This document shows, piece by piece, positions 4,326-14,735 of a DNA stretch of 14,753 nucleotides. Below the pieces are notes generated by a model. The model was not told the DNA's origin. It ran no database searches and saw nothing but the letters and a program-made list of their open reading frames with translations. Within the stretch, counting starts at the first letter, position 1, and every line of letters starts with the position of its first letter. A program made the translations under genes and the position numbers. Source of the DNA: Candidatus Methylomirabilis sp. (lineage in GTDB: Bacteria; DYJV01); NCBI GenBank assembly GCA_020722945.1, contig DYJV01000033.1, positions 1-14,753 on the forward strand, written 5' to 3'.

Positions 4326-5386
<1,061 letters not shown>

Positions 5387-5387
<1 letters not shown>

Positions 5388-6175
5388 TGAACAGTAAAAA
5401 TTACCTCCTGATATTTCTATTCTTTCTCAATTTATCAATATTTTTATCAAGTTCATTTCTTCATCTCAGGATAACTATTGGAGATTCCCTACTATACTCT
5501 ATAAGTAAGCCATTTCTCCTAATAAACAACCATATCTTACAGCTTTATGATGAAGTAAGATTTAAAATAGATGTATTTAGAGAGAGTGAGAAGCGGATAA
5601 AGAGTTTGGAAGATGAGTATAAAGTTTTAAAGGAGCGTGTAAGGAGTATGGAGCAGATTCAGCTTGAGAATAAAGAGCTCAAAGAGTATCTTCTCCTTAA
5701 CGAGTTTTACACCTCCGAAAAAATTTCTGCAAAGGTAATAGGTGGAAGCAGCAGCATATATCAGTCAACAGTTGTATTAGATAAAGGTAAAAATGACAAT
5801 ATCAACAATGGTTCAGGGATTATTAATATTGACGGGGTTGTTGGGCAGATAATAAATACATATCCGACCTCTTCAAATGCAATATTATTGACTGACCCAA
5901 GGTTCAAAATTGATGTGGAGCTTCTCTCTTCAGGACAGAAGGGACTTCTTGTAGGGAACAATGATAACTGCATAGTAAAATATCTACCCATTGACAAATC
6001 TTACGTTGCTGGGGAGATGGTGTTTACATCTGGGTTTAATGATATATTCCCCAAAGGTATCCCGGTAGGATATGTATCCGAAATTGTGGATGATAAGCTT
6101 TATAAATCTGTAATAGTTTTACCTTTTATTAAAAAATACTCTTTGAATATTGTTTCAATAATAAAAAATAGATGA
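5387..6175 (+). CDS. mreC: Rod shape-determining protein MreC
   Basis: Bitopic inner-membrane protein whose periplasmic domain activates PBP2 and the Rod complex. From the ATG at 5387 it is 262 residues: one transmembrane helix (about 6-27), a charged coiled coil (about 58-105), then the double beta-barrel domain. Family-like blocks include VVLDKGKNDNINNGSGIIN near the start of that domain, GLLVGNN, and GFNDIFPKGIPVGYV near the end. The ATG overlaps the mreB stop as TGATG; a TTG three bases earlier (5384) is in frame but less likely. There is no good ribosome binding site, so translation is probably coupled to mreB. The stop overlaps the mreD start as ATGA. Confidence 0.95.
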
Positions 6176-6693
6176 ATACTTATCTTTTTAAAACTATCTT
6201 TTTTCTTGTAGTTACTTCGATTATAATAATAATTTTTCAGCATACTTTATTTAGTCTTCAGTTTTTTAACAGTATAAAACCTGAATTTTTTACTCTCCTT
6301 GTGCTCAATTACTCTTTTTATGAAGCAGAAAAAACAAGAGGTTATCTTCTTGCATCATTTGTAGGATTTATCGAAGATATCTTTACTAACCAAATTTTTG
6401 GGTTAAATATCTTTTTTAAGTCTCTCCTTTTCTTGTTTATATACTCACTAAAAAACAAAATTTATATCAAGAGTCTCTTTTTAAAATCTTTTCTTGGAAT
6501 ATTGATAAACATATCTGAGATATATGCTATATATATTTTATCAAATATCTTCCAGTTTTCCTACACTAATTCACTTACCGAAAATTTTATAAACTATCTT
6601 ATCCTAAATATCATAGTTACCCCTATTTTCATATTTTTTATAGACAGTATCCAATCCAAATATATAAATAATTTCAATGAAAATAAAAACTGA
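6172..6693 (+). CDS. mreD: Rod shape-determining protein MreD
   Basis: Small polytopic inner-membrane protein of the Rod elongation complex. The 173 residues are very hydrophobic and suggest five to six membrane segments (about 5-25, 37-50, 57-75, 80-95, 102-125, 140-160). The short motif GFIEDIF (65-71) followed by GLN resembles the moderately conserved acidic loop of MreD proteins. The rest is poorly conserved, so position between mreC and the PBP2 gene is a major part of the evidence. The start overlaps the mreC stop (ATGA) and the 3' end overlaps mrdA by 17 bases. Confidence 0.9.
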   Translation: MNTYLFKTIFFLVVTSIIIIIFQHTLFSLQFFNSIKPEFFTLLVLNYSFYEAEKTRGYLLASFVGFIEDIFTNQIFGLNIFFKSLLFLFIYSLKNKIYIKSLFLKSFLGILINISEIYAIYILSNIFQFSYTNSLTENFINYLILNIIVTPIFIFFIDSIQSKYINNFNENKN

Positions 6694-8500
6694 GAATATT
6701 TTTGCTAAAAGTAACAGATATTCAATAATTACAATATGTATCCTTCTGCTCATATTTATTATTATATTGAGGTTGATATTTCTCCAGATTTTATATGGTG
6801 ATTTCTACCTTATGCAGTCTGAAAGAAATATGATAAGGATAAAGAGGATACCCCCTTTAAGAGGGACAATCCTTGATGCTAATAAAAATATTTTAGCCAC
6901 TAATAAACCAGCATTCAGCCTTTATCTTAACAGAAAAGACTTAAAAGAGAATAAGATCACTATTGAGGAGATGATTGACACCCTCTCCTATCTTATAGAG
7001 CTGGATAAGGATAAAGCAAGAGCTACTATTGATAAATACAAAAAGTTTTCAGATGCACAGCCTATTAAAATATTATCAAACCTCAAATGGGAGCAGCTTG
7101 TAAAGATAGAAAGTTCTTCAGCTTTTTTGCCAGGGATATATGTTGATTTTGACCCTATAAGATACTATCTGCACGGAGATATAAATGCCCATATTTTAGG
7201 TTATGTATCAGAGGTTGATAAGAAAGAGTTAGAGCGTTTTGATGAGCTTGCACCTGGTGATTTTTCTGGTAAAACTGGGATAGAAGGTTTTTATAACAAA
7301 TTGCTTATTGGAAAAAGTGGTAAGAAGAGAGTTGTTGTAGATGCTCTTGGGAATGAGTTAAAAGTTACATCGACTGTGAATCCAGAAAATGGTAAAACTC
7401 TTATCCTTTCAATAGACAACGAACTGCAAAAATTTGCATACAATCTCCTTGATAATAAATCGGGGAGTATTATCGCTATTGATGTAAATACTGGAATGAT
7501 AAAATGTTTTGTATCTGCTCCATCTTTTGACCCAAATATTTTTTCAAAAGGGATAACATCTCAAGAGTGGAATATGCTCAACAGTGACAAATTAAAACCT
7601 CTTTCAAATAAAGGGATATCTGGGTTATACCCGCCGGGGTCAACTTTTAAAGTAATTACAGCTACTGCAGGGTTATCCTTAAAAATTATTTCACCATCTG
7701 ATTTGCTTTACTGCAGTGGGACATATACTCTTGGTAATGCAAAATACCGATGCTGGAAGAAAGAGGGGCATGGTGCAATAGGGATGATAAGAGCTATAAA
7801 GGAGTCGTGTGATGTTTATTTTTACGACCTTGGAAGCAGAGTTGGAATAACAGGAATATATGAAACAGGTTCAGAATTTGGACTCGGTTTTAAGACAGGG
7901 ATTGACCTTGTTGGAGAGAAAGAGGGACTCTTGCCCTCCAAAGCATGGAAGCAGAAACACCTCAAAACTAAATGGTATGCAGGGGAGACACCACCTATTG
8001 CAATAGGTCAAGGTTATACAACGGTTACCCCACTGCAGATGCTTATGGTGTATAGTGCTATTGCAAATGGTGGGATACTCTATGAGCCGAGGCTTGTAAG
8101 CACAATACTTGATAATCAGGGTAACATTATAGAAAATATAGAGCCTAAAATATTACGGAAATTAAAATTTAGTGATGAAGTGCTCAAAATAATTCAGACA
8201 GGATTAGACAAAGTTGTAAATGAGCAGGGTGGAACAGCTTACTCATCAAGGATTAAAGATTTCAAATATTCTGGGAAAACAGGGACGGCACAAGTGAGGA
8301 AATTAGGTGAACACCGTGAGAAAAATATAAATAAAATAGAGTATGAAGAGAGGGATCATGCTTGGTTTGTAGCTTATGCCCCTTCAGAAAACCCACAACT
8401 TGCGGTTGTTGTATTGGTAGAGCATGCTGGACATGGTGGTTCTGCTTCTGCACCATTGGCAAAAGAGATTATAAAAAAATATTTTAATATACAAGAGTAG
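6677..8500 (+). CDS. mrdA: Peptidoglycan D,D-transpeptidase PBP2 (class B penicillin-binding protein)
   Basis: Cross-links new peptidoglycan during lateral wall growth, working with the RodA glycosyltransferase. In the 607 residues a single N-terminal membrane anchor (about 16-38) is followed by the pedestal domain with RGTILDANKNILATN (62-76), then the transpeptidase domain. The active-site motifs are PGSTFK (320-325; nucleophile S322, K325), SCD (377-379) and KTG (534-536, in YSGKTGTAQ). IAIGQGYTTVTPLQ (441-454) is also typical. Two cysteines at 347 and 359 sit in the CSGTYTLG/CWKKEGHG region typical of PBP2; whether they pair is not shown. The ATG lies inside the end of mreD (17-base overlap) and rodA begins three bases after the stop, which fits a PBP2-RodA pair. 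Confidence 0.96.
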   Translation: MKIKTENIFAKSNRYSIITICILLLIFIIILRLIFLQILYGDFYLMQSERNMIRIKRIPPLRGTILDANKNILATNKPAFSLYLNRKDLKENKITIEEMIDTLSYLIELDKDKARATIDKYKKFSDAQPIKILSNLKWEQLVKIESSSAFLPGIYVDFDPIRYYLHGDINAHILGYVSEVDKKELERFDELAPGDFSGKTGIEGFYNKLLIGKSGKKRVVVDALGNELKVTSTVNPENGKTLILSIDNELQKFAYNLLDNKSGSIIAIDVNTGMIKCFVSAPSFDPNIFSKGITSQEWNMLNSDKLKPLSNKGISGLYPPGSTFKVITATAGLSLKIISPSDLLYCSGTYTLGNAKYRCWKKEGHGAIGMIRAIKESCDVYFYDLGSRVGITGIYETGSEFGLGFKTGIDLVGEKEGLLPSKAWKQKHLKTKWYAGETPPIAIGQGYTTVTPLQMLMVYSAIANGGILYEPRLVSTILDNQGNIIENIEPKILRKLKFSDEVLKIIQTGLDKVVNEQGGTAYSSRIKDFKYSGKTGTAQVRKLGEHREKNINKIEYEERDHAWFVAYAPSENPQLAVVVLVEHAGHGGSASAPLAKEIIKKYFNIQE

Positions 8501-8503
8501 AAG

Positions 8504-9610
8504 ATGTTTGGGATAGACAGAAGACTAATTGTAAATTTTGATTGGAAAATATTTATACTTGCTATCATTATTACATCTATAGGGATACTTACTATTTATA
8601 GTGCTAATTACGGATTTGACAGCAGTGAATCTGTATTTTATATAAAAAGGCAGATAATGTGGCTACTAATTTCTATCTTTGTTATGGTTCTTTTTACAAC
8701 TTTTGATTACAAAAGTCTTGAAGATTACACTATACACATCTACATCATAAATCTGATTCTATTAATTGCAGTTTTACTAATAGGGAAGAAAACAATGGGA
8801 GCCCAGAGATGGCTTGCTATTGGTGGTTTTTCATTTCAACCTTCCGAGTTATTCAAATTTACAACTATACTCCTTGTTGCAAAATTCTTTTCAAAAGATG
8901 ATTTTCTCCATAAATACACTATTTTTGAGATTACTAAAGTTATAATTATGGTAATTATCCCGACATTTTTAATAATAAAGCAGCCTGATCTTGGAACAGG
9001 TATGTTGATACTTTTTGTTTTTGGAACACTTATTTTATTTGTAGGGATAAAATTTTCATCTTTAGTAAAACTTATATTCACAGTCATTATATGTATCCCG
9101 ATTGGATGGACTTTTTTAAAACCTTACCAGAAAAATAGGTTGCTTACATTTATCTTCCCTGAAAATGATCCACTTGGAGCGGGATATCACATTGCACAGT
9201 CAAAGATAGCTATCGGTTCAGGTAAACTTTTAGGGAAAGGTTTCCTGCAAGGGACACAGAACAAGCTTAATTTTCTTCCTGAGGAGCATACTGATTTTAT
9301 ATTCTCGGTTTTTGCTGAAGAGTGGGGATTTATAGGATGTGTAGTTTTGATTTTTCTATATTTCTTGTTTTTTACTTCAATTATAAATGTTTCACTAAAA
9401 GCAAGGGACAACTTTGGTGCTATCATTGCTATAGGTGCAATGTCTATTTTCCTATGGCAATTTTTTATCAATATAGGGATGGTGATAGGGATACTGCCTG
9501 TTGTAGGTATTCCACTTGAAATGATTAGTTATGGAGGGACATCTCTTGTTGTTTCGTATGCACTTTTGGGGATTGTGCTGAATGTCAGCATGAGAAGACA
9601 TCTATTTTGA
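8504..9610 (+). CDS. rodA: Peptidoglycan glycosyltransferase RodA (SEDS family)
   Basis: Polytopic inner-membrane enzyme that polymerises lipid II into glycan strands for cell elongation. The 368 residues give about ten membrane segments. SEDS signatures are GAQRWLAIGGFSFQPSELFK (99-118), KQPDLGTG (159-166), PEEHTDFIF (259-267) with D264 at the position of the essential aspartate of RodA, and ISYGGTS (341-347). The ATG lies three bases after the mrdA stop with a purine-rich AAGAGTAGAAG across the junction. The stop codon overlaps a TTG start of the following PHP-domain gene. Neighbouring PBP2 and MreBCD favour RodA over the division paralogue FtsW. Confidence 0.96.
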   Translation: MFGIDRRLIVNFDWKIFILAIIITSIGILTIYSANYGFDSSESVFYIKRQIMWLLISIFVMVLFTTFDYKSLEDYTIHIYIINLILLIAVLLIGKKTMGAQRWLAIGGFSFQPSELFKFTTILLVAKFFSKDDFLHKYTIFEITKVIIMVIIPTFLIIKQPDLGTGMLILFVFGTLILFVGIKFSSLVKLIFTVIICIPIGWTFLKPYQKNRLLTFIFPENDPLGAGYHIAQSKIAIGSGKLLGKGFLQGTQNKLNFLPEEHTDFIFSVFAEEWGFIGCVVLIFLYFLFFTSIINVSLKARDNFGAIIAIGAMSIFLWQFFINIGMVIGILPVVGIPLEMISYGGTSLVVSYALLGIVLNVSMRRHLF

Positions 9611-10797
9611 GCGAGACCGTATTAGATATTCATCTACATTCAAAATATTCAAGAGCTACTTCAAAGAGTATGAATTTAGCAACGATTGCTGAATATGCAG
9701 ATAAAAAAGGTGTAGATATAGTTGGAACGGGTGATTTTCAGCATCCTCAATACTTTGAAGAGATAAGGAGTAACCTTGAAGAGGATGAAAGAGGGTTATT
9801 CAAATTTAAACATAAAAATTTTAAAAGTAGATTTATCTTAAGCACTGAAATAAGCTCTATATACAAAAAAAATGGTAAAGTCAGGAAAATCCACAATATC
9901 ATAACCTTCTCCAACCTTAAATCTGCTGAAAATTTTTCAACGAAACTCAACTTACTTGGTAATATAAAATCTGACGGAAGACCGATACTTGGAATTGACC
10001 CCAAAATGATTTTGACAATTGCAGTAGAGATAGACCCCTTTTCTATCTTTATCCCTGCACATATATGGACTCCATGGTTTTCTATACTTGGGAAAAATAG
10101 TGGATTTGATACAATTTATGAATGTTTTGAGGAGATGACAGATTATATTTTTGCCTTGGAGACTGGTCTTTCATCTGACCCTGAAATGAATAGTTTATGC
10201 TCATTTTTAGATGATTTTACCCTTGTATCAAATTCTGATGCTCATTCACCTGATAAAATAGGTAGAGAGGTCACAATTGTAGATTCTCCACTCGATTATT
10301 TTTCCATCAGGGAGGCTTTGAAAGATAAAAGGAGAGTCAAAACCGTAGAGTTTTATCCTCAGGAGGGGAAGTATTATAATGATGGACATAGAGCTTGCGA
10401 TGTTTCACTATCACCTGAGGAAGCTGAAAATTGTAATAATATATGCCCAATATGTGGGAAGAAGCTGACTTTTGGAGTTTTGCATAGGGTCTATGATTTA
10501 GCCACAAGAAAATATCCCTCTGATAAATGCCAGAGATTTTACAAACTTGTTCCTCTTCAAGAGATACTATCTCAAATATTATCTGTAAATGTTAAAAGTT
10601 TGAAAGTCAGTGAGTTTTATAACAGACTTATCGATGAATTTGGAAGTGAAATAAATATATTAAAAGATTTGGCTCTAAAAGATTTAGAAAGTTTTGGAGG
10701 GGAGAAAGTAGCATTTGCAGTAAAGAGTGTAAGGGAGGGTAGGGTGTCTATAAATGCAGGGTTTGATGGTAAATTTGGAGTTGTATCAGTTATGTAG
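9607..10797 (+). CDS. PHP-domain endonuclease Q-like DNA repair nuclease
   Basis: By family, EndoQ proteins nick DNA 5' of deaminated bases (uracil, hypoxanthine, xanthine) and abasic sites; this gene is usually annotated only as a PHP-domain or conserved hypothetical protein. The 396 residues start with the PHP metal-binding set: HLHSKYSRA (H9, H11), GDFQHP (D43, H46), E81, H96, H152 and SDAH (D211, H213). A zinc-ribbon-like segment follows (C264, C276, C280, C283, with CPICGKKLTFGVLHRV from 280). It ends with an alpha-helical region closing in GFDGKFGVVSV, which matches the C-terminal style of the family. The start is TTG overlapping the rodA stop as TTGA; the conserved DIHLHSKYS begins at residue 7, so no later start is possible. 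It is the last gene of the mre operon. Nuclease activity is inferred from family, not demonstrated. Confidence 0.78.
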   Translation: MSETVLDIHLHSKYSRATSKSMNLATIAEYADKKGVDIVGTGDFQHPQYFEEIRSNLEEDERGLFKFKHKNFKSRFILSTEISSIYKKNGKVRKIHNIITFSNLKSAENFSTKLNLLGNIKSDGRPILGIDPKMILTIAVEIDPFSIFIPAHIWTPWFSILGKNSGFDTIYECFEEMTDYIFALETGLSSDPEMNSLCSFLDDFTLVSNSDAHSPDKIGREVTIVDSPLDYFSIREALKDKRRVKTVEFYPQEGKYYNDGHRACDVSLSPEEAENCNNICPICGKKLTFGVLHRVYDLATRKYPSDKCQRFYKLVPLQEILSQILSVNVKSLKVSEFYNRLIDEFGSEINILKDLALKDLESFGGEKVAFAVKSVREGRVSINAGFDGKFGVVSVM

Positions 10798-12836: not shown

Positions 12837-14735
12837 ATGAAAACAGAAATATTAAAATATGCCTTAAATTATTTCAGAAACAAAAGTTTACTTTACAAGA
12901 TATTTCTTACCTATGCGGTTTCCCTTCTGCTGATAGGTATTTTTGGCTACTCATACTATATATTCAATAATATTCGGACAATTGAAAGGGAAATAGATAT
13001 TTATCAAAAAAATCTTATCAATGACAAGAAAACTTATGTTCAAAATATTGTCAATACTGCACTTAAAGGGATAGAACAATTTTATGAGAATTATAAAGAT
13101 GGCAGTATAGATGAAGAGACAGCAAAAAGTGTAAGTGCAAAATTTATAAATTCTATAAGATATTTCAATAAGTTTAACTCTAATAACTCTGTTGGGTATA
13201 TTTGGATTAATACAATTGATGGAGTTATGGTTGTAGACCCTCCTAAACCTGAATTAAATAATGTAAATGTTATTGATTTTAAAGATAAAAATGGTGTTTA
13301 TCTTTTCAAAGAGATGATAAATATCGTAACAATTGCTGGAGAGGGATATGTCTCTTACTGTTGGCCTAAACTTGAAAGTAACTCTAAAGATTGTTTTGAA
13401 AAAATATCTTATGTTAAATATTTTCCCCAGTGGAAATGGATAGTTGGAAGTGGATTTTATCTTGATGAAGTTGATCAAGAAATTGTTAAATACCATTCAA
13501 GGGTGAGAGATGATATACTAACTACCATGTTTAAAAGTTTGATGTTTGGTATTGTTGCAACTACATTAGCAGGGATGATATTCTTTTTCATAGTATATTA
13601 CATTACATCACATCTAAAGAGGATAAGTCAATTATCTATCAAATTATTAGAAGGGGAGATAAATCCTAAACTCAAACTCCCATATTCATCAAATGATGAA
13701 ATTGGGCAGTTAATTTCAAACTTCAATATATTTATTGATCAAAGCTATAAACTTTTGACTTTCAAAAAGACTATAGAGAATGATATAGACATTGATTCTG
13801 TATATGCGAGGATAATATCCCTTATTACTGATGAGTTCCAAATAGATAAATTTAATTTTTATGAGGTCAACAATAGTAAAAATTCAATTAAGCTGATAGA
13901 TTCAAGAGGGGATTTTTACTGTAACCAAGATATCTTTGTTGATGCTAATTTGTGTCGTGCAGCAAGAGTAGCAAATATTATTGACTCATCAGATGTAAAA
14001 AATATATGCACTTCATTCTCTTGTAATCAAGAAAATAGCTGTTCAATTTATATATGTATCCCAATAATAATAGGTTCAAATGTGAGGAATGTCTTACAGA
14101 TTATATATGATAAAAGTTCCTACGACACCCAAAATATACAAAGACTTTCAAAATTTTTATCAGAGTCTGCACCTGTTATAGAATCAAAGAGATTATTAGC
14201 ACAATTAAAAGAGTCAACTTTGAGGGATCCACTCACAAACCTTTACAATAGAAGATTTCTTGATGAATCAGCCGATATACTTTCATCAACAATCTTAAGG
14301 CGTGGGAGTTATGCGGGTGTTCTCATGTGTGATATCGATTTTTTTAAAAAAGTAAATGATATTTATGGTCATAATATTGGAGACAAAGTTTTAATGGATG
14401 TAGCCCATATATTAAAAAAATCTGTAAGAAGTTCTGATATGGTTGTTAGATTTGGTGGTGAGGAGTTTCTAATACTAATGCAGGATATAGAGCCGGATAA
14501 AGTTATGGTAATAGCTGAAAAGATAAGGGTAAATGTTGAAAGTTTTGAGATTAATCTTACAGGGCACACTTTGAAAAAAACAATCAGTGTTGGGGTGTCA
14601 ATCTTCCCTTCAGACTCCAAAAGTTTTTGGCAGTGTATCAAATTTAGTGATGTTGCACTCTACAAAGCTAAGGAAACTGGAAGGAATAGAGTTGTAAGAT
14701 TTGAAGAATCTATGTGGCAGGAGGAGGAGTTTTAA
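12837..14735 (+). CDS. Membrane diguanylate cyclase: Cache-HAMP-GAF-GGDEF
   Basis: Makes cyclic di-GMP from two GTP in response to a periplasmic and possibly an internal signal. In the 632 residues, membrane helices at about 20-43 and 232-257 flank a periplasmic single-Cache domain (about 45-215) with the family-like GYIWINTIDGVMVVDPP (120-136) and the WKWIVGSGFYLDEV block (199-212). A HAMP-like linker (about 255-308) leads to a GAF-like segment (about 315-450) with cysteines at 362, 373, 391, 396, 402 and 407. The catalytic domain has DPLTNLYNRRF (464-474), CDIDFFKKVND (498-508) and GGEEF (540-544). RSSD (531-534), five residues before GGEEF, is a canonical inhibitory I-site, so product feedback is likely. 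The ATG follows GGAG with a six-base spacer. It stands alone, divergent from rplU; its signal cannot be read from sequence. No EAL domain is present. Confidence 0.93.
   Translation: MKTEILKYALNYFRNKSLLYKIFLTYAVSLLLIGIFGYSYYIFNNIRTIEREIDIYQKNLINDKKTYVQNIVNTALKGIEQFYENYKDGSIDEETAKSVSAKFINSIRYFNKFNSNNSVGYIWINTIDGVMVVDPPKPELNNVNVIDFKDKNGVYLFKEMINIVTIAGEGYVSYCWPKLESNSKDCFEKISYVKYFPQWKWIVGSGFYLDEVDQEIVKYHSRVRDDILTTMFKSLMFGIVATTLAGMIFFFIVYYITSHLKRISQLSIKLLEGEINPKLKLPYSSNDEIGQLISNFNIFIDQSYKLLTFKKTIENDIDIDSVYARIISLITDEFQIDKFNFYEVNNSKNSIKLIDSRGDFYCNQDIFVDANLCRAARVANIIDSSDVKNICTSFSCNQENSCSIYICIPIIIGSNVRNVLQIIYDKSSYDTQNIQRLSKFLSESAPVIESKRLLAQLKESTLRDPLTNLYNRRFLDESADILSSTILRRGSYAGVLMCDIDFFKKVNDIYGHNIGDKVLMDVAHILKKSVRSSDMVVRFGGEEFLILMQDIEPDKVMVIAEKIRVNVESFEINLTGHTLKKTISVGVSIFPSDSKSFWQCIKFSDVALYKAKETGRNRVVRFEESMWQEEEF

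Follow-up and report, generated by a model that had tools for sequence, protein, structure and literature searches.

We think that the last gene of the cell-elongation (mre) operon in this stretch of DNA from Candidatus Methylomirabilis sp. (14,753 nucleotides in all, and called the window here) encodes a bacterial endonuclease Q (EndoQ) that descends from a fusion with a helicase, has since lost both the helicase half and the beta-clamp tail, and sits in its operon incidentally, and we would put the probability of this reading at roughly 0.83. Its sequence places the gene among the bacterial members of the endonuclease Q family, and so in an already known kind of enzyme. More interesting than the place in the operon is the detail that helicase and clamp tail were probably lost secondarily: if the trimmed protein is active, then both parts would be dispensable in a once-fused lineage, and the position behind rodA matters little by itself unless it is conserved.

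Is the gene an endonuclease Q?

The open reading frame is present and intact, as the earlier note had described it, with 396 codons and a TTG start (9607-9609) that overlaps the TGA stop of rodA (9608-9610); its position and those of the features discussed below are collected in Table 1. We take this TTG to be the best start, since no in-frame ATG, GTG or TTG lies upstream and a downstream start would delete the D7-x-H9-x-H11 metal motif, and it is made all the more credible by the relatives, which begin about six residues ahead of that motif, just as the window protein does; an ATT at 9604 may be an alternative.

Against the TIGR00375 profile the protein scores 185.8 bits along its full length, under a curated cut-off of 326.6 bits that is an NCBIfam naming threshold and not a property of the enzyme. 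Since the three other bacterial EndoQs that were scanned, all of them fused to a helicase, also stay under it (178.2, 178.6 and 175.0 bits), the shortfall seems to be a trait of the bacterial type and not of this particular protein. No Pfam model passes its cut-off. In a phmmer search of the PDB the sole good match is the EndoQ of Pyrococcus furiosus (PfuEndoQ, PF1551; structures 5zb8 and 7k30-7k33, E-values of 1e-48 to 3e-49), which aligns over its full length, residues 7-394 of the window protein pairing with 6-381 of the archaeal one at a best E of 2.7e-49, and the family assignment that had been proposed stands on both searches. The predicted structure, made from two input sequences, is of low confidence, with a mean pLDDT of 43.

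The alignment shows all the catalytic and base-pocket residues that the literature names to be conserved, among them the metal-binding residues of the PHP motif and E81, H96 and H152. Identical to PfuEndoQ are the PHP metal residues, the catalytic zinc ligands and the base pocket, and in the zinc ribbon three ligands out of four (C264, C280 and C283, which are Pfu C252, C268 and C271). The roles of the PHP motifs, zinc ligands, pocket residues and SDAH motif are described in PMC8307549 and PMC4357722; for example, an alanine change of PfuEndoQ E76, H84 or H139 abolishes activity, and G169 and S171 line a pocket that excludes normal bases (PMC8307549). The protein also differs from the archaeal enzyme. 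The C-terminal zinc ribbon has the bacterial form H-C-C-C, its first ligand being His instead of Cys, as in 91 of 96 relatives, and the protein is without the C-terminal PIP-like tail of PfuEndoQ. Another bacterial member of the family is the EndoQ of Bacillus pumilus, whose nicking at deaminated bases has been demonstrated (Shiraishi 2017), to go by the passages that cite this work in PMC6202378 and PMC11354406.

If the window protein behaves as its family does, it would recognise uracil, hypoxanthine, xanthine and abasic sites by flipping them into its pocket, and would cleave the phosphodiester bond on the 5' side of the lesion. Polymerase, nuclease and ligase would then complete the repair from this nick, and an ordinary PcrA/UvrD from another locus could assist by unwinding the DNA.

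Table 1. Features of the endoQ region, in positions of the window
Feature	Position	Strand	Basis
mreB-mreC-mreD-mrdA(PBP2)-rodA, overlapping or nearly abutting genes	4350..9610	+	ORFs; NCBIfam TIGR00904, TIGR00219, TIGR03426, TIGR03423, TIGR02210
endoQ, putative PHP-domain nuclease with zinc ribbon, without helicase half or beta-clamp tail	9607..10797	+	TIGR00375 and PfuEndoQ matches, residue conservation, tail inspection
TTGA overlap of rodA stop (TGA) and endoQ start (TTG)	9607..9610	+	Sequence
PHP motif D7-x-H9-x-H11 (Pfu D6, H8, H10)	9625..9639	+	Residue conservation
E81 (Pfu E76), catalytic zinc ligand	9847..9849	+	Conservation; role PMC8307549
H96 (Pfu H84), catalytic zinc ligand	9892..9894	+	Conservation; role PMC8307549
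H152 (Pfu H139), catalytic zinc ligand and base-pocket wall	10060..10062	+	Conservation; role PMC8307549
G187-L188-S189 (Pfu G169 to S171)	10165..10173	+	Conservation; role PMC8307549
SDAH motif, residues 210-213	10234..10245	+	Residue conservation
Zinc ribbon H261-x2-C264 ... C280-x2-C283	10387..10455	+	Alignment; Pfu first position is Cys

What happened to the helicase half and the clamp tail?

EndoQ and a C-terminal UvrD/PcrA-like helicase are joined in one protein in 33 of the 96 relatives (L021:4182-6635, L073, L075, L024, L029, L031 and others), and our literature search found no paper describing such a bacterial EndoQ-UvrD fusion. Fusions of this kind (G001 C400, G191 C107, G345 C1) are the closest relatives of the window EndoQ in the tree, and it differs from them in having no helicase half: the protein stops at 10797, and no remnant follows downstream. 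The case for a secondary loss rests on a quick maximum-likelihood tree without bootstrap, which pairs the window protein as sister with the fused EndoQ of G001, a genome of the same order (SH-aLRT 98), and puts it into a set of 21 rows, 17 of them fused (SH-aLRT 97). On this placement, the window lineage is probably descended from an EndoQ-UvrD fusion and has dropped the helicase half, which makes the protein a secondarily trimmed, stand-alone nuclease.

The source genome yielded no separate helicase of the type seen in the fusions; its assembly is 98% complete with 5.8% contamination, so a helicase half encoded elsewhere may have been missed. The best helicase match there, 716 amino acids long, is a PcrA/UvrD of the ordinary sort that carries a tudor tail, a kind that G001 also has, alongside its fusion. 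Several further proteins in the fused section of the tree look unfused as well, and helicase losses, or else partial gene models, may therefore be frequent. At one locus (L022:5547-8509) endoQ and a UvrD-like helicase are two genes overlapping by 4 nucleotides, a split form of the fusion.

As for the tail, beta-clamp motifs at the C-termini of bacterial EndoQs were described in 2016 by Shiraishi and colleagues (PMC4858679). Of 94 bacterial relatives, 51 have a strict motif within their last nine residues, compared with 3 of 1205 control ORFs, which makes it common but not universal and hence not a defining feature. In about half of the bacterial EndoQs, fused and unfused alike, a QLSLF-like motif stands at the extreme C-terminus. 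The window protein ends in ...GVVSVM, with no such motif and no remnant of a clamp tail in any frame downstream of its stop, and it has probably lost any tail that it had; the G001 fusion, which ends in IKTIF, is likewise without a clear clamp motif. In archaea the EndoQ tail has been shown to bind PCNA, and TkoEndoQ without its tail keeps cutting and is no longer stimulated by PCNA (PMC4858679), so the loss of a tail need not abolish activity.

Does the place behind rodA mean anything?

The claim that endoQ closes the mre operon is confirmed by NCBIfam profiles for MreB, MreC, MreD, PBP2 and RodA upstream (MreC falls slightly under its cut-off, at 92.3 against 92.75 bits) and by the obg, L27 and L21 genes 3' of endoQ (named by eye from their translations), which lie on the opposite strand and so make endoQ the final gene of the run. 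The 4-nucleotide overlap with rodA is ordinary in the source genome, where, in about 169 kb with crude gene calling, 8 of 95 same-strand neighbour pairs overlap by 4 nucleotides and 21 of 95 overlap at all. With gene overlaps this frequent, endoQ is likely to be transcribed together with the mre operon, to judge from the overlap, and a special purpose is unproven.

The earlier note saw growth-linked expression in this arrangement, and the alternative that survives best takes up that idea: co-translation with rodA would set the dose of EndoQ to the rate of elongation, in an arrangement conserved in the phylum. The TTGA overlap is in keeping with it, and so is G001, the only same-order genome compared, which breaks across exactly the rodA-endoQ stretch: its mre contig (L180, C353) ends inside mreD and its endoQ-uvrD contig (L021, C400) begins inside endoQ, neither PBP2 nor RodA was found in the assembly, which gave FtsW/FtsI-like matches only, and the orientations of the contig ends would fit the order mre-rodA-endoQ. 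However, contig ends inside a gene are frequent when an assembly consists of about 500 contigs, 4-nucleotide overlaps are common in the source genome, and RodA is found near endoQ in none of the 96 relatives with fetched neighbourhoods. For 84 of these, including 18 from the same fused clade, the fetched stretch holds at least 1.2 kb upstream, and this 0 of 84 does not support the proposed linkage. We therefore consider a growth-tied EndoQ unlikely, and its position behind rodA most likely incidental. A related version, in which selection in a sparsely sampled phylum keeps EndoQ, fused or alone, behind rodA and doses the repair nuclease with the elongation machinery, strikes us as more unlikely still. 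PBP2-like genes near EndoQ at two loci, L089 and L116, were considered as the same linkage and rejected, neither having a RodA match; at L089 what looks by eye like an NAD-dependent sugar epimerase gene separates PBP2 from endoQ.

Is it still a lesion nuclease?

A protein that has shed its helicase and its clamp tail might of course have gone on to drift, becoming a PHP-family hydrolase that no longer acts on lesions. A drifting protein would suit the long end branch in the quick tree (0.84, against 0.33 in the sister), the lack of a beta-clamp motif, and the threonine (T300) that stands where 90 of 96 relatives have a conserved Asp, but it is hard to square with catalytic and pocket residues that are all kept. 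Moreover, the window EndoQ is 56% identical to that of G001, in the range of the neighbouring housekeeping genes between the same genomes (53% for KdtA and 45% for LpxK), so that there is no sign of decay, and we hold such a drift to be very improbable. Least probable of all is a phage-defence nuclease, a role raised as possible for bacterial EndoQ in a review (PMC8307549), given that the window protein matches no PADLOC model, has no helicase partner and sits in a housekeeping operon.

How common is EndoQ in bacteria, and what might it do in this host?

The idea that an EndoQ is unexpected in a bacterium is not borne out, in view both of EndoQ-like matches in 98 of 386 genomes (5 of them weak) in a sample spread over many families and of the published B. 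pumilus enzyme, as cited in PMC6202378; an activity of B. subtilis EndoQ has also been reported as preliminary (PMC4357722). EndoQ is thus no archaeal oddity: about a quarter of the genomes in a broad bacterial sample have homologues, and one in three of these homologues is a UvrD-type fusion. A mobile origin of endoQ was considered and rejected, no copies having been matched in viral contigs, plasmids or phages.

The suggestion of a warm-living host fares no better. An IVYWREL-based estimate, with a formula from the literature and 44.5 thousand residues as input (some 7% of the genome), comes to about 31 C with a charged-minus-polar value of 4.1, so the amino-acid composition suggests a mesophile, and nothing points to heat-driven deamination. 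The sampled stretches of the source genome have a GC content of 30.7%, and no 16S was found in its assembly. A UDG-superfamily gene is present there, so that EndoQ would not be the sole route of uracil repair. EndoV (PF04493) is absent from both the source genome and G001, and EndoQ may be the main hypoxanthine-incising enzyme of the host. The broader idea of EndoQ as a replacement for EndoV was rejected, since across the 386 genomes the two exclude each other only weakly (together in 33; odds ratio 0.65, p 0.10, uncorrected for relatedness).

What else lies in the window?

A second MreB paralogue, with 53-56% identity to the MreB of the window, is present both in the source genome and in G001 (window 4350-5387; L182:4377-5411; L181:5166-6188). 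On the minus strand, at 884-2832, a gene that reads by eye, from its translation, as phosphofructokinase-like overlaps an lpxK-like gene by 4 nucleotides, and the pair belongs to a divergent cluster that also holds kdtA- and gmhA-like genes; in G001, too, lpxK and kdtA adjoin mreB. Finally, the plus-strand gene at 12837-14735 reads by eye, from its translation, as a long sensor containing a GGEEF motif, probably a diguanylate cyclase.
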